From Myxococcota bacterium (GTDB lineage Bacteria > Myxococcota_A > UBA9160 > SMWR01): 64,000 nucleotides of DNA. The notes under the pieces are model-generated. The model made no database searches. It saw nothing but the letters and a program-made list of their open reading frames with translations, and had not been told where the DNA came from. A program made the translations under genes and the position numbers. Where the stretch lies: the NCBI GenBank assembly GCA_039030075.1, contig JBCCEW010000013.1, positions 62,001 to 126,000 of the forward strand, read 5' to 3'. Each line of letters begins with the position of its first letter. The stretch's first letter is position 1. This document shows positions 39,516 through 46,124 of the stretch, piece after piece.

Positions 39516-40157
39516 CTACCAGGGCAAGACGCTCTCGTGCTCGGTCACCCGCACGATGGCCGCCTGGGCTCCGCGCGCGGTCAGTTCCTGGTGCCAGGCG
39601 GCCAACCCGCCCGCGTCGACCTCGGTGGCGTGCACTTCCGTCACGAGGTCGTAGGCCGGGTCACTCCCGAGCGCGCGGTTCTGCAGGCACGCGCGCGGTC
39701 CGGCGGCGGTGTCGAGCAGCCCGGACAGGAACTTCGACTCGTACTCGGCCACGAAATCGGCGGCCGCCTCACCCCCCGCCCGCTTCACCAACGCCAGCAC
39801 CCGGGTGCCATCGCTTCCCACCGACGCCTCCTCCACCCAGCGCTCCTCGACCGCAAAGAAGGTGTTCGCCGGCCGGTCCATGAACGACACCTCGTCTTGC
39901 AGGATCCTCTCGCCGACCGGGGTCTGTAGTCGCGCCTGCACGTCGAGCGCACCCTGCGGACCGTGGTACCAGAAGGACGTCACGACGTCGGCGGCGAACG
40001 CACCAGCGCACACCTCGGCCACGTGATGCCGCAGGTAGCGCTTCGTGCCCTCCAACACCGTCTCGATGGCCAGGGGCGCGTGGACCTGCTCGTAGTGGTC
40101 CCGAAACGCCTCACGTTCGAGGCCAGGCTTGCGGACGATCAACGCGAGAGTCTTCAC
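39516..40157 (-). CDS. EthD-domain protein
   Basis: A 213-residue protein starting at GTG behind AGGGGA. The first half, TLALIVRKPGLEREAFRDHY to VSFMDRPANTFFAVEE, is an EthD-type dimeric alpha-beta barrel with the HAPL motif (YEQVHAPLAIE). The second half (TRVLALVKRAGGEAAADFV and on) looks like a second, weaker copy. EthD accompanies cytochrome P450 EthB in fuel-ether degradation, and relatives act as small-molecule isomerases or carriers. It shares a 213-base divergent region with the amidohydrolase gene, which contains the GCAAG palindrome. Confidence 0.75.
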   Translation of the reverse strand: MKTLALIVRKPGLEREAFRDHYEQVHAPLAIETVLEGTKRYLRHHVAEVCAGAFAADVVTSFWYHGPQGALDVQARLQTPVGERILQDEVSFMDRPANTFFAVEERWVEEASVGSDGTRVLALVKRAGGEAAADFVAEYESKFLSGLLDTAAGPRACLQNRALGSDPAYDLVTEVHATEVDAGGLAAWHQELTARGAQAAIVRVTEHESVLPW

Positions 40158-40242
40158 AGCAGTCCCCTTTTCTTGCTCCAGCGAACCGCGCAGCCCGCCC
40201 GCCCGGGAGTCTCGCGGGCATTCTCGACTCGCGCCGGCACAT

Positions 40243-40260
40243 ACGCAAGCTTCCTTGCGT
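40243..40260. promoter_or_regulatory. Perfect palindrome ACGCAAG-CTTC-CTTGCGT, probable operator
   Basis: A seven-base perfect inverted repeat with a four-base spacer in the divergent region between the EthD gene and the amidohydrolase gene. A related ACGCAA lies just downstream at 40270. The core GCAAG-N4-CTTGC recurs upstream of the response regulator gene at 45153-45166, and both spacers begin with CT. It is a good candidate binding site for that regulator. Confidence 0.6.
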
Positions 40261-40370
40261 GGTGGAGACAACGCAAAGACCGGGGTTTCCGTCGATGAAT
40301 TCATGACGAGGGTCGCATCTCTCTCAAGTCGAGTTGCGTGCTGGCGATAACTCGGTTGGGAGGGCCGCAC

Positions 40371-41822
40371 GTGTTCCAGGGTTTCACCGTCATCGACGCC
40401 GACAGCCACAAATGCGAGAACCCCCCTGTCTTCTTCGACTTCATCGAAAGACCGTACCGGGCTCGCATCTCGATCCTTCGTGATCGCTACGGAGAGCAGC
40501 GCTTTCAGATCCGCGATGCCGACCCGGTCACTGGAAAGCCCGAGTTCGATCGCACCTTCCTGCAGATCGAGGGCTACGGGAAAGGCACCTATCGCCCCTA
40601 CCACGCCGAGACCACGTTGGGCGGCCTGTTCAACCGCATTCGTCTCGAGCACATGGAGCGCGAAGGGATCGATCATCAGGTGATCTACGGCTCGGTTCCG
40701 CTCGCGTTCAACGCGTTGATCGACCGAGAACTCGCGGTGGCCCTGTGTCGCGCCTACAACGACTACATCGACGCCGACACCCGGGCGCACAGCGATCGCT
40801 TGCACCCGATCGCCGTGCTCCCGATCCAGGATCCGACCGCCGCCGTCGAGGAGATGCGCCGCTGCGTCGAAGAGCTCGGTATGGTCGGCGTGACCATGGC
40901 GCCCCACGTACCGGCGCCCCACCCCGACGCGCCCGAGGCGTTCCCCAAGCTCCGCGTCCCGAAGGCGCTCTCGCACCCCGACTTCGCGCCGATCCTCGCC
41001 GAGGCCGAGCGCCTCGACGTCGCGATCGGGCTGCACGGCGCGCCCGGGATGCAGCTGGCCGGCGGCAGTTCGGACCAGCTCGACAGCTTCACGCTGGTGC
41101 ATGTGTTCGCAAATCGTTCCATGCAGCAGATGGCGCTCGCGAAGCTGATCTTCGACGGAACTCTCGAAGCCTTCCCGAAGCTGCGCTTCGGATTCCTCGA
41201 AGCCGGCGTGGGTTGGCTCCCGGACCTGATGCACAGCCTCCACGAGCACTGGGAGAAGCGCATCTTGCACTTCGACCCTTCCGTCGAGCCTTCGATCAAG
41301 GATTTCGTCCGCGAGTTCGCACGCGAGCGTGACTGCGCGGGAGAACTCGGTCTCTGGCGGAAGGTGCGCCAGGTCCGCAACGTGCTGTCCCGGGAGCGCG
41401 ACGATCGGGCGTCACGGGACGAGATCGAAGCGTTCCGCAACGAGCACCCGCGGCTCCCGCGCGACCCGACGGAGTACCTCGCGCGCGGCCAGATCTTTGC
41501 CTCCCTCGAGCCCGACGACCCGGCGCCGCTCTACCTGGAGCGCGCCCTCGGCCCAGCGGCTCGGCAGATCCCCTGCTTCGCCGTCGACTACGGACACTGG
41601 GACGCGACGCTCGAGAACTGTGTCGCCCTGGTGGCCGAGCGCCCCGGGATCGATGCCGACCTCGCGCGTCGACTGCTCTCCCAGAACGCCCTCGATCTCT
41701 ACGGGCCGCGACTCGCAGCCCGGATCGGTGAACACCCCATCCCCCGACCGGAACGGAGAAGCCGCTATGTCCGAACGAACCCAGAAGACATTCAACCCCT
41801 TCCGCGTCCTCAGCAACTCTGA
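40371..41822 (+). CDS. Amidohydrolase_2 family metal-dependent hydrolase
   Basis: A 483-residue cytoplasmic TIM-barrel protein. VIDADSHKCENPPVFFDFIE at the N-terminus is the metal-site start in the D-x-x-H form common to this subgroup, followed by RIRLEHMEREGIDHQVIYGS, AVLPIQDPTAAVEEMRRCV, IGLHGAPG, LRFGFLEAGVGWLPDLM and CFAVDYGHWDATLENC (catalytic Asp region). Relatives include ACMSD-type decarboxylases and hydrolases of aromatic breakdown. The GTG start is set by GGGAGGG six bases ahead. Its 3' end overlaps the ferritin-like gene by 56 bases, so they are co-translated. Confidence 0.87.
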   Translation: MFQGFTVIDADSHKCENPPVFFDFIERPYRARISILRDRYGEQRFQIRDADPVTGKPEFDRTFLQIEGYGKGTYRPYHAETTLGGLFNRIRLEHMEREGIDHQVIYGSVPLAFNALIDRELAVALCRAYNDYIDADTRAHSDRLHPIAVLPIQDPTAAVEEMRRCVEELGMVGVTMAPHVPAPHPDAPEAFPKLRVPKALSHPDFAPILAEAERLDVAIGLHGAPGMQLAGGSSDQLDSFTLVHVFANRSMQQMALAKLIFDGTLEAFPKLRFGFLEAGVGWLPDLMHSLHEHWEKRILHFDPSVEPSIKDFVREFARERDCAGELGLWRKVRQVRNVLSRERDDRASRDEIEAFRNEHPRLPRDPTEYLARGQIFASLEPDDPAPLYLERALGPAARQIPCFAVDYGHWDATLENCVALVAERPGIDADLARRLLSQNALDLYGPRLAARIGEHPIPRPERRSRYVRTNPEDIQPLPRPQQL

Positions 41823-42633
41823 GCGGGAGCAGCACCTCGCCGATTACCAGGCGTTCCTCGAGGAGCGCGACGGGCCGATCGACGTCGATGCGTTCACACT
41901 GGCCCATCGCGAGTCGTACCTTCAAGAGCTCGAAGACAAGCCTGTGCGGTGGACAGGAGACGTCGACGACGCGGCCTTCTATCAGCACGTCCGCAAGACC
42001 GGGAGTCCACCGCTCGACGAGCGAACCTCTCTGCTGGTCTCAGCGGCTCTCGCCAACGTGGGCGAGTCCTACGGGGTCGAGGTGGAGCTCGACGCTTTCT
42101 CTAAGCGGCCCCATCGCGCGAGCGAGAACCCGCTTTACATGCACCTCATGTTCGAGGAGCGCTACCACACGCGCATTCTCGACGAGATGTGCCGGGTGTG
42201 TGGTCTCGAACCGGAGCGGCGATCCCCGTCGTGGCACCAGCGAGTAATCATCAACTGGATGATGTACCTCCCGGATCGACTGCGCTGGATTCCGATCTTC
42301 GCGGGTGAAGTCCTCGGCAGCGTGGTGTTCCAGCTTCTGCTCGAGAGCGTCGAACACTTTTCTGAGGAGCCGGAGGTCGAAGAGCGCGTCCGCTCTCTGC
42401 TTACCGAGATCTGGATCGACGAGGTTGGACACGTCGCATACCTTCGGGCGAAGATGGGCCCGATGGGAGTGCAGATCGCACGCGCACTCCTGCCGATGAT
42501 CGCCGCCTCGCTCTTCAAAGACGTGCCCGCCAACAACGCGATCGGACTGCACCGAGAGCGGGTCATGGAGCGCTTGCGAGACGGCGTGCCGGTTCCGCCG
42601 GGCTTCGGCTGGATGGCGCCCGACCCCGCCTAG
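41767..42633 (+). CDS. Ferritin-like (probable diiron) protein
   Basis: A 288-residue all-helical protein behind GGAGAAGCC. Two carboxylate/His motifs, MFEERYHTRIL (~120-130) and EIWIDEVGHVAYLR (~210-223), match the E-x-x-H pattern of ferritin-like diiron proteins. An earlier helix with VGESYGVEVEL could give another ligand. Relatives include diiron oxygenases and oxidases. Overlapping the amidohydrolase gene, it is a plausible monooxygenase or partner for the same substrate. I cannot place it in a named family, and iron binding is inferred from motif spacing. Confidence 0.72.
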   Translation: MSERTQKTFNPFRVLSNSEREQHLADYQAFLEERDGPIDVDAFTLAHRESYLQELEDKPVRWTGDVDDAAFYQHVRKTGSPPLDERTSLLVSAALANVGESYGVEVELDAFSKRPHRASENPLYMHLMFEERYHTRILDEMCRVCGLEPERRSPSWHQRVIINWMMYLPDRLRWIPIFAGEVLGSVVFQLLLESVEHFSEEPEVEERVRSLLTEIWIDEVGHVAYLRAKMGPMGVQIARALLPMIAASLFKDVPANNAIGLHRERVMERLRDGVPVPPGFGWMAPDPA

Positions 42634-42707
42634 GGAGAGCAGAGCCGGATTCCGCGCCCTATTCCCGTCGGGAGCGACTACCATGTCGCGGTCTACGGGG
42701 AAGGGTC

Positions 42708-44465
42708 GTGGAAACGGCGAAACCAGACTCCCAGCACCACTTCGGCCCGCGGCACGCGGCGCTCGATGCGAGGATCTACTTCCTCGCGGGCCTGTCCTAC
42801 CCCTGCTGGCGCTTTCTGTCCCCCGGCGGCGCCGCCCCGCTCTGGCCCTGGCTCGCGATCAGCGGAGTATTCCTCGCGATCGCCTGGCTCGTGCGGACGG
42901 GACGACTCCGCGACATGGCGCAGCACGACGCCACGATTCTCGTTTCTGGCCTGGTGACGCTGCACTTCATGCTGCTCGCCCACCAGAGCGAGATGCAGCC
43001 GTTCTATGCGGTCGGATCTTCGATGGCACTGATGATGACCGTACTGTTCGTGCGACGTGAGCGTGTGCTGTTCTTGTACGCCTCCTGCGCCACCGCGGCC
43101 GCGCTCGCACTCTACGTCGCCGAGGCCGACCCGCGAAAGGTCGCGTACTGGGCGGGTCCACTCCCGGTGTTCGCCTTCGCATACGTACGGATTCGATCCC
43201 AGAGCGCGTTCGAACGCAGCCTCGAGCTTCTCGTGGAAGAACGCACAGCGGCCCTGACCTCTGCGAACCGCAGGCTCCGCGAGGAGAGCGAGACCCGCGG
43301 TCGCCTCGAGAAGGAGCTCCGCGTCCAGCACAAGGTCGAGGCCGTGGGACGACTGGCCGGAGGCGTCGCGCACGACTTTAACAACCTGCTCACGACGATC
43401 GGCATCTACGCAGACCTGATTCACGACGGCCTTCCCGAGGAGAGCGAGCTCCGCGAGGAGATCCGCTACATCCAGCAAGCACAGCGCCAGGCCACGACGC
43501 TGACCCAGGAGCTGCTCACCCTCGGGCGCCGAAGCCACGCGCGCCTCGACGTGATCGACCTCAACCAGGTGATCCGCGAGAACGTCGCGCTGTTGCGACG
43601 CATCCTGCGTCCCCAACACGAGCTCGAGGTCGCGCTCGGGGACGCAGAGCTCCCGATCCTGGGAAACATCGACCAGCTGCAGCGCATCCTTCTGAACCTG
43701 GCCATGAACGCCGCCGACGCGATGCCCGGACCCGGCCGGCTGCGCATGGAGACGGCGATCGTCACTCGGGACCAGCTGGTGCAGCTGAACCTGGCCTCGC
43801 CCTTCGAAGAGTCCTCCGAGTTCGTGTGCTTCTCGGTCACCGACACCGGCGTCGGCATGACCCCGGAAGCCCGCGACCGCGCCTTCGACCCCTTCTATAC
43901 GACCAAAGCCGATAGCGGTTCCGGCCTCGGGCTCTCGATCGTCCACGGCATCGTGAGTCAGGCGGGGGGATACGTCCGACTCGCCAGCGAGCCAGGGCAC
44001 GGCGCCCGCTTCGACCTCTACTGGCCCAGTGCAGCCAAACCGAGCGATGCCCCGGTTGTGTCGGCTACCAGCCATCGGATGCCTCGAGGCTCCCGCATCT
44101 TGCTGGTCGACGACGAGGCGCCTCTGCGCGCCGCGGTTCAACGGGTGCTGACGTCCGCGGGTTGCTTCGTACAAGAAGCGGGAGATGGCGTGGAAGCGCT
44201 GGAGATCGCGCGTCGAGAGCCCTTCGACCTCGTCATCACCGACGCGGTGATGCCGCGGATGAGCGGCGTCGATCTCGCAGATCACCTGCGAGCGGAGCTA
44301 CCGAACACGCGAATCCTGGTGATGTCGGCCCATCTCAACGACGATGCGCTGAAACAGGTCGCGCCGGACCTGCCGTTCCTCGCCAAGCCCTTCGCGCCGA
44401 GGGAGTTTCTCGAGCGCGTCGAGGCACTGCTGTCGGCGCCAGCGCCCGAAGCGCGAGACTTCTAG
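42708..44465 (+). CDS. Membrane hybrid histidine kinase with C-terminal receiver
   Basis: A 585-residue sensor kinase. Five or six membrane segments (~20-160) form the sensor, followed by a coiled coil (FERSLELLVEERTAALTSANRRL), the H-box GRLAGGVAHDFNNLLTTI (His ~222), an N-box LLNLAMNAADAMPG, a G1 box SVTDTGVGM and G2 SGSGLGLSIVHGIV, then a receiver domain with VDDEAPLR, phospho-acceptor Asp in VITDAVMPRMSG and Lys in LAKPF. It starts at GTG behind GGGGAAGGG. The stop codon overlaps the convergent response-regulator gene by four bases, so the two are likely partners. The signal is unknown; the position suggests the amidohydrolase/diiron substrate. Confidence 0.9.
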   Translation: METAKPDSQHHFGPRHAALDARIYFLAGLSYPCWRFLSPGGAAPLWPWLAISGVFLAIAWLVRTGRLRDMAQHDATILVSGLVTLHFMLLAHQSEMQPFYAVGSSMALMMTVLFVRRERVLFLYASCATAAALALYVAEADPRKVAYWAGPLPVFAFAYVRIRSQSAFERSLELLVEERTAALTSANRRLREESETRGRLEKELRVQHKVEAVGRLAGGVAHDFNNLLTTIGIYADLIHDGLPEESELREEIRYIQQAQRQATTLTQELLTLGRRSHARLDVIDLNQVIRENVALLRRILRPQHELEVALGDAELPILGNIDQLQRILLNLAMNAADAMPGPGRLRMETAIVTRDQLVQLNLASPFEESSEFVCFSVTDTGVGMTPEARDRAFDPFYTTKADSGSGLGLSIVHGIVSQAGGYVRLASEPGHGARFDLYWPSAAKPSDAPVVSATSHRMPRGSRILLVDDEAPLRAAVQRVLTSAGCFVQEAGDGVEALEIARREPFDLVITDAVMPRMSGVDLADHLRAELPNTRILVMSAHLNDDALKQVAPDLPFLAKPFAPREFLERVEALLSAPAPEARDF

Positions 44466-45091
44466 GAGTTCTCGCGTCGCCGCGGACCGGGGTCGGAGCC
44501 GGGCTTCGGCGGCCAATCGCGCGCGATCTGCTGCACCGCCTGGCGCGAGATATCCAGCAGACGAGCGGCACCGCTCTTGCTGCCCTGGGTCATCGCCAGC
44601 GCCTGGTCGATCATGTTGTTGCGCACGCGATTCTGAAATTCCTTCATCGGAACCTTGCCCACGGCTGCCCGCGCGTGGTGCGAGATCTCCGGGGCGCTCG
44701 TAGCAGCGCGCATGACGACCTGCTCGAGTTCTTCGAGCTTGAAGGGCTTCGACAGGAACTCCTGAACGCCAAGACCCGGCAGCGCGAACGCCTCGTCCAT
44801 GCTCGCCGCACCGGAGATGCCGATCTTCAGCGGCTCGGGCGACATATCGAGCGTCGCCTTGAGCACGTCGATCGAGGATCCATCCGGAAGACAGATGTCG
44901 GCCACGATCAGGTCCGGGTGGTGATGCAAGAGCGCGAGCGCCTCGGCGGAGGTACCCGCTTCGAGCGCCTCGGCGCCCCACCGCTCGACGAGTTTCACCA
45001 TCGCGCGACGCAGCGGCACGTTGTCTTCGAGGAGCAGGACCCGTTCGAACTTCAGGGGCTCCGCCGGCAACGTCGCTGTATTTCCCGCCAT
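44462..45091 (-). CDS. Response regulator with Fis-type HTH output
   Basis: A 209-residue regulator: receiver LLLEDNVPLRRAMVKL, phospho-acceptor Asp ~65 in VADICLPDGSS, Ser in ISGAAS and Lys in LSKPFKLEEL. A linker leads to a Fis-type HTH (~155-188, MIDQALAMTQGSKSGAARLL and DISRQAVQQI). The build is like RegA/ActR-class regulators (no AAA+ module), although the HTH differs. It probably pairs with the adjacent hybrid kinase. There is no ribosome site; TATATT lies six bases before the ATG, predicting a leaderless mRNA. A GCAAG-N4-CTTGC palindrome about 68 bases upstream suggests autoregulation. Confidence 0.88.
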   Translation of the reverse strand: MAGNTATLPAEPLKFERVLLLEDNVPLRRAMVKLVERWGAEALEAGTSAEALALLHHHPDLIVADICLPDGSSIDVLKATLDMSPEPLKIGISGAASMDEAFALPGLGVQEFLSKPFKLEELEQVVMRAATSAPEISHHARAAVGKVPMKEFQNRVRNNMIDQALAMTQGSKSGAARLLDISRQAVQQIARDWPPKPGSDPGPRRRENS

Positions 45092-45097
45092 GACGGC

Positions 45098-45103
45098 AAT
45101 ATA
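45098..45103 (-). promoter_or_regulatory. -10-like hexamer of a predicted leaderless promoter (response regulator)
   Basis: TATATT on the minus strand within GGGCTATATTGCCGTC, six bases before the ATG at 45091, with no ribosome site. Confidence 0.5.
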
Positions 45104-45152
45104 GCCCTAGGGGAACCGCTTGCGAAGCCAAGTTGCGGATCGGAACGAGACC

Positions 45153-45166
45153 GCAAGCTCACTTGC
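45153..45166. promoter_or_regulatory. GCAAG-CTCA-CTTGC palindrome, probable operator upstream of the response regulator
   Basis: An inverted repeat centred about 68 bases upstream of the response-regulator start, a usual place for an activator site. It shares the core and spacer length with the perfect palindrome at 40243-40260. Further CTTGCG and TTGCGG half-sites lie at 45119-45137, nearer the promoter. Confidence 0.5.
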
Positions 45167-45200
45167 ACCCCATTTTCGAGGGGGGCCCGCGCCCGATCGC

Positions 45201-46124
45201 CTACCGACAGGGCATGCCCGGTACGGACGGACGGGGCGTCACGCGTGAGCCCGGCGAGTCACCGGCGGGAGACAGCTCGATCGTGATCGCTCCGACGAAG
45301 GTCTGGCTGCTGGCGTAGAGCAGCCGGCGCGGCCGCTCTTCCGTCACCCATGCCTGGGTCTCTCGATGACGCTGATCGTCCTCGTCGTCGTCGGTGAGCT
45401 CGCGGGTCGAGAGCTCCAGACGCCAGACGGCGTGCGACGTGCCCGACCAGGATCGCTCCTCGCGTCCCGCTACGCGTGCGCGAAGGAGGTAGCGACTCTT
45501 CCCCGTAAAGGTGTCGAGCTCGTAGGTCGCGCCCTCGGTGTAGTCCAGGTTCATCAGCAGGAACGTCGCGGTCGGGATGTCGAACGCGTTGTCCGACTGG
45601 TACCTGTACTCCTTGACGCGCCCCTTGCGGTGCCGAGTGCCGTGCATCGAGCCGACGTCGGGTCCGCCGGACGCGTAGCGCACCTCGGTGCGATCGTGTC
45701 GACGGTTCTTGCACTCGTCGATCGTGAATCGATCCGGGCCGAATGGCGCGGTCGCCACGCGCGCGTCTCCCCAGAAACGGTAGGGGTAGATCCAGTCGAG
45801 CACCGGATGGGTGGCCCCGAAGCCCTCCATCCGCACACTGCCGTCGCGCTCGAGCGCGTGCATTTCGATCGACGCGGTCGCCACCGGGAGGCCGGCCCAG
45901 CGGAGCACGTAGTGGAGGGGCGCGTCGGGGACGGTGGCCTCCACGGGGAGCGCGTATACCGGCGTGTCGACGGCCACGTCGAGGTTCTTCACGTAACGGG
46001 CGGTTGCGGGCAACGCGATGGCCACCGCGCACAGCGCCCACCCCGCCATCCTTCGGAGGCGGACGGCACTTCGTTCTGCAGCGTGGGATGCTTGGCTCAC
46101 GACCGCGATGGACGTGAACGGCAT
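45201..46124 (-). CDS. Exported DUF3108-like protein
   Basis: A 307-residue protein with a signal peptide (WALCAVAIALPATARYV after basic residues). The mature part is all-beta in character: APLHYVLRWAGLPVATASIEM resembles the start of DUF3108 (a periplasmic/outer-membrane domain with a lipocalin- or LolA-like barrel), followed by YPYRFWGDARVATAPFG, paired Tyr/Arg-rich strands and VWRLELSTRELTDDDEDD. The C-terminus is Pro/Arg-rich. It lies 71 bases downstream of the YdhR-like gene on the same strand. The family match is by eye and the role is unknown. Confidence 0.6.
   Translation of the reverse strand: MPFTSIAVVSQASHAAERSAVRLRRMAGWALCAVAIALPATARYVKNLDVAVDTPVYALPVEATVPDAPLHYVLRWAGLPVATASIEMHALERDGSVRMEGFGATHPVLDWIYPYRFWGDARVATAPFGPDRFTIDECKNRRHDRTEVRYASGGPDVGSMHGTRHRKGRVKEYRYQSDNAFDIPTATFLLMNLDYTEGATYELDTFTGKSRYLLRARVAGREERSWSGTSHAVWRLELSTRELTDDDEDDQRHRETQAWVTEERPRRLLYASSQTFVGAITIELSPAGDSPGSRVTPRPSVPGMPCR

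Follow-up and report, generated by a model that had tools for sequence, protein, structure and literature searches.

A conserved palindromic promoter box and its predicted link to a RegA-like response regulator in uncultured Myxococcota-related bacteria

The locus described here raises the question of whether a palindrome that stands on both sides of a two-component system, GCAAG-N4-CTTGC, is an operator and, if so, of which regulator and for which genes. Box 1 (40243–40260, extended form ACGCAAG-CTTC-CTTGCGT) is located upstream of an amidohydrolase operon, box 2 (45153–45166, GCAAG-CTCA-CTTGC) upstream of a response regulator (RR) gene. Both are predicted operators without assigned strand, and both match the palindrome exactly, as stated in the original prediction; its distance of 68 bases between box 2 and the RR gene is right if taken from the center of the box to the ATG start codon. 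No further exact copy was found in the window (the whole 64-kb stretch of DNA that was analyzed), where 0.05 copies are expected, and none of 100 dinucleotide shuffles of the window (mean 0.05) reached two. The earlier claim that the repeat is unlikely to be due to chance is upheld. Boxes with one or two mismatches showed no excess over chance within the window. In the literature, the palindrome was not found in any text in the spellings tried.

Three genes follow box 1 on the plus strand. The first (40371–41822) encodes an ACMSD-like Amidohydro_2 protein (Pfam PF04909, E = 6e-19) with PtmU3 and ACMSD as best solved relatives and with orthologues of 63–69% identity; its start was set to the GTG at 40371, because the orthologues show it. 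The second (41767–42633) encodes a ferritin-like/AurF-like putative diiron protein. The AurF match is below threshold, and the invariant residues E100, E131-x-x-H134, E181, and E219-x-x-H222 are candidate ligands. The structural model of this protein is confident (mean pLDDT 88) and gave weak Foldseek matches to diiron oxidases, while no PDB match at E ≤ 0.001 was found. The third gene (42708–44465) encodes a membrane-type, CckA-like hybrid histidine kinase with HisKA, HATPase_c and receiver domains (Pfam, NCBIfam), whose orthologues (40–43% identity) occupy the same position in related loci. Since gene 2 overlaps gene 1 and the kinase gene begins 74 bp later, box 1 heads an amidohydrolase-diiron protein-kinase operon. 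On the minus strand, the RR gene (44462–45091) encodes the proposed binder of the box, a protein of RegA/ActR-like layout with a receiver (Response_reg, residues 18–126) and a Fis-type HTH (HTH_8, residues 159–185; Pfam, NCBIfam). In an alignment of nine sequences, E22, D23, D65, S93, and K115 are invariant, which is the canonical set of a phosphorylatable receiver, and the recognition helix RQAxQQ is nearly invariant among the orthologues. As the third gene encodes the histidine kinase, kinase and regulator, the two halves of the two-component system, each stand behind a box; this role of the kinase was absent from the original prediction, as were the boxes at other histidine-kinase genes discussed below.

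To what extent is this arrangement conserved? A single-sequence query found RR orthologues in 8 of 80 genomes of the order, and a profile search found 12 copies (38–51% identity) in 11 of 91 genomes of the class; none was found in the genus mate (G001). All named records that match the RR are metagenome-assembled genomes (MAGs), labeled Deltaproteobacteria, Myxococcota or Proteobacteria. Amidohydrolase orthologues are present in seven genomes, all of which carry the RR, and in none that lack it. The arrangement box-amidohydrolase-diiron protein-kinase, facing RR-box in convergent orientation, was found again in other families; in one genome (G040), RR gene and operon point the same way, the RR gene coming first and two boxes lying between them. 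In the 300 bp upstream of each gene, 8 of the 12 RR orthologues and 6 of the 7 amidohydrolase orthologues have an exact box, and one RR promoter (G006) and one amidohydrolase promoter (G009) contain a box with one mismatch. The own promoters of the RR orthologues of G040 and G076 lack a box, as does that of the second RR copy of G008. This second copy forms an RR-kinase pair (L059, contig C213) without amidohydrolase and without box, a paralogue that has perhaps left the circuit.

A dyad census of these 19 orthologous promoters (12 RR, 7 amidohydrolase), covering every 5-bp palindromic dyad with a spacer of 0–12 bp, found GCAAG/N4 in 14 of them. Its shifted versions reached at most 5 promoters and any unrelated dyad at most 2, while the count never exceeded 3 in 200 shuffles of the promoters. 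As a rough estimate, the chance of finding the box in 8 of 12 RR promoters is about 5e-19. The promoter DNA around the boxes cannot be aligned, save for one close pair (G089/G090) and one 21-nt match. Thus selection on the box, and not recent common descent of the DNA, accounts for its presence. Comparison of the orthologous sites refined the consensus to YGCAAG-N4-CTTGCR with a free spacer: the arms are conserved, flanks and spacers are not. Since spacers vary freely among orthologous sites, the CT that begins the spacer of both boxes, to which meaning had been given before, is a coincidence. Judged from sequence comparison, the box is a real promoter control element linked across families to the RR gene and to the amidohydrolase/ferritin-like operon, and the two links drawn originally would both hold. 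In addition, autoregulation predicts that different species keep a site in front of the regulator gene, and this agrees with the eight exact boxes and the one with a mismatch.

We propose, with a probability of about 0.8, that YGCAAG-N4-CTTGCR is the operator of the RegA-like RR, which would activate its own gene and the amidohydrolase/diiron-protein/hybrid-kinase operon. The core promoters bear on the direction of this control. In front of the amidohydrolase gene, a sigma28-like core promoter is predicted (40324–40350, plus strand) that consists of TCAAGTC (40324–40330), N12, and GGCGATAA (40343–40350). Compared to the sigma28 consensus TAAAGTTT-N11-GCCGATAA, its spacing agrees, as do 5 of 7 positions of the -35 and 7 of 8 of the -10 element; it differs in the -35 element TCAAGTCn and in GGCGATA in place of GCCGATA. 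The element TCAAGTC-N12-GGCGATA fronts an operon of non-flagellar genes, and a similar form is present in six other genomes: each of the seven amidohydrolase promoters has TCAAG-N14/15-GGCGAT, or a sequence close to it, 45–50 nt upstream of the start, six with identical spacing and five in the form TCAAGT-N13-GGCGATA. The pattern TCAAGT-N13-GSCGATA has a single match in the genome that contains the window (G000). This conserved core promoter between the EthD gene (minus strand, GTG start at 40157; EthD protein by Pfam) and the amidohydrolase gene points to the latter and not to EthD.

The RR gene in turn is preceded by a putative sigma70-type core promoter (45098–45126, minus strand), TTCGCA-17-TATATT, the sole sigma70-like match within 40100–45300. 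Between the end of its TATATT and the RR start codon lie 7 bp (45091–45103), and thus the RR transcript may lack a leader or the protein may start further in (TTG at 45070). Elements resembling a -10 stand at similar distance downstream of the box in several RR orthologues.

One might argue that the RR binds the boxes and mainly represses, as in negative autoregulation. Autorepression is common among bacterial regulators, and the position of the box would by itself be compatible with it. However, the box lies upstream of every recognizable core promoter and never overlaps one. In the amidohydrolase promoters, the nearest box ends 1–97 nt above the sigma28-like -35 element (the second box of G040 lies 180 nt above). 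Box 2 stands 26 nt above the -35 element of the putative RR promoter, and in RR promoters in general the box is found roughly 23–69 nt above the best -10-like element. Thus the positions suit an activator, and we consider repression unlikely. The activator model of the original prediction would fit in this respect, whereas its proposal of EthD as a target finds no support: in none of the related loci examined does an EthD gene neighbor the amidohydrolase promoter. A precedent for such activation is known: CRP activates the sigma28 promoters of aer and trg in Escherichia coli from a site upstream of the -35 element, while few examples of regulator-dependent activation of sigma28-type promoters are known (PMC2859248). 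The octamer-N11-octamer spacing and an upstream activator site, a predicted one in our case, are alike in these promoters and in the one described here; the genes downstream are non-flagellar in our case.

A different view would accept the box as real and assign it to another dimeric regulator, for example of the TetR, MerR or MarR type, that controls both the RR gene and the operon. Short-spacer palindromes suit many dimeric regulators, binding by the RR is something we infer, and some genomes that lack the RR are rich in boxes (G003, G004, G079, G087). Yet no other conserved regulator gene was found in the cluster among the related loci examined, and the box stays with the RR gene where the operon is gone (G042, G086, G089, G090). 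Furthermore, the box tracks the RR among genomes. Its density is 2.1 per Mb in genomes with the RR vs. 0.47 in those without (P = 9e-5), and 65 of 96 boxes are intergenic in the former vs. 13 of 37 in the latter (P = 7e-4), both statistics ignoring phylogeny. The 65 comprise 11 of 14 boxes in the genome of the window and 54 of 82 in the others; with the cluster itself left out, 48 of 79 are intergenic. The boxes of G003 and G004 are not enriched between genes. Taken together, we regard control by another regulator as improbable. With respect to the box-rich genomes that lack the RR, divergent RR candidates were rejected as well: the matches inspected were NtrC-type proteins, and a weak full-length RR match in G003 has no box nearby. 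The 17 boxes of G087 (1.6 Mb) mostly share one spacer (GCAAGGCGGCTTGC) and resemble a dispersed repeat more than an operator.

The whole genome of 5.76 Mb contains 14 exact sites. A genome-wide search had been suggested originally, with the expectation that hits concentrate upstream of genes. With a simple codon-usage gene caller, applied to individual stretches of the genomes, which makes all intergenic fractions given here approximate, 11 of the 14 boxes are intergenic, while at least 3 lie in coding sequence. After reading frames by eye, two further boxes (L002, L013) and perhaps a third (L001) may be coding, which leaves about 8 as the safe intergenic count. As a control, 15 sites of the palindrome read backwards were examined, of which only 2 are intergenic (Fisher P = 6e-4; if the safe count is used, P = 0.017). 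That the two copies in the window are a chance match, a dispersed repeat, or hairpins of the terminator kind is highly improbable. Any shared palindrome could have been picked, and the stop codon of the preceding gene is only about 35 bp away from box 2, but the presence of the box in the orthologous promoters counts as refuting this. The conserved arms between variable flanks and spacers, the lack of a terminator-like match at either box, and the position of the boxes upstream of predicted transcription starts speak against it as well.

Besides the cluster, which genes might the regulator control? Among 65 intergenic boxes, 56 have a gene start no more than 400 bp away, and the median distance is 106 bp for the 61 that face a gene. 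In the genome of the window, two boxes front further histidine-kinase genes (L007, L012) and one a response-regulator gene (L003); histidine-kinase genes are preceded by boxes in G042 (L106, L147) and G030 (L159) as well. These boxes hint that several kinases which might feed into the regulator are under its control. Clustering of the box-adjacent genes yielded mainly signaling proteins and no further gene family that recurs across genomes, and therefore the regulon outside the cluster seems to turn over quickly. Other boxes were seen in individual genomes. In G030, a further box stands in front of the gene for a receiver protein whose C-terminal part looks PilZ-like by eye (L133:2502-3416), directly upstream of the amidohydrolase operon. 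In G090, boxes stand in three places (L105, L110, L140) upstream of glycine-rich repetitive, probably exported proteins.

The RR resembles known regulators in several aspects. It shares the layout of RegB/RegA, PrrB/PrrA, and ActS/ActR regulators, one receiver plus a short C-terminal Fis-type HTH in about 180–210 amino acids, and its residues 18–191 match the ActR/PrrA/RegA model NCBIfam NF033791. The score of 48.6 bits, however, is far below the cut-off of 250. As the match is nearly full-length yet that weak, we describe the RR as probably RegA-type-like and do not file it as a member. RegA of Rhodobacter binds sites such as GCGAC-N5-GTCGC (PMC5359404), and both this site and the box consist of 5-bp inverted half-sites with a short spacer. 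The half-sites differ (GCAAG with spacer 4 vs. GCGAC with spacer 5), and a GCGAC dyad is absent among the dyads shared by the 19 promoters. The genomic partners of RegA-type systems differ as well, being the amidohydrolase and the diiron-like protein in our case. While RegB is the kinase of RegA, the neighboring kinase here is a CckA-like hybrid with its own receiver, and RegB was not found among its best 25 listed NCBIfam matches. With CckA-type kinases it shares HisKA, HATPase_c, the C-terminal receiver and the phospho-acceptor region GGVAHDFNNLL. Its 260 bits against the CckA model remain far under the cut-off of 1000, its short hydrophobic N-terminal region lies outside the CckA match, and its partner is not CtrA.

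Taking up again the proposal that the RR acts through the box, the regulator rather than another protein would bind, probably as a dimer that is phosphorylated, presumably by the neighboring kinase, and that places a Fis-type HTH on each half-site. Binding upstream of its own promoter and of the operon promoter would activate both, placing regulator and cognate kinase under positive feedback, with the two enzymes, amidohydrolase and diiron protein, as outputs. As a more tentative and rather doubtful extension, one might speculate that the RR represents an undescribed lineage of RegA-like regulators, with an operator code of its own, among uncultured Myxococcota-related bacteria, that it serves as upstream activator of a sigma28-type promoter for an enzyme-plus-kinase operon, and that it also controls the further histidine-kinase genes. 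If this is true, a single regulator would determine the levels of several kinases that may act as its inputs. For a class of regulators in which the site of the best-known member, RegA, is degenerate, the box would provide a sharply defined operator and a predicted regulon, and it would do so in a bacterial group represented here by MAGs alone. The operon promoter may be a case in which a sigma28-type promoter depends on a regulator for its activation, and the box would give a first regulatory handle on a conserved, uncharacterized amidohydrolase/diiron-protein operon.
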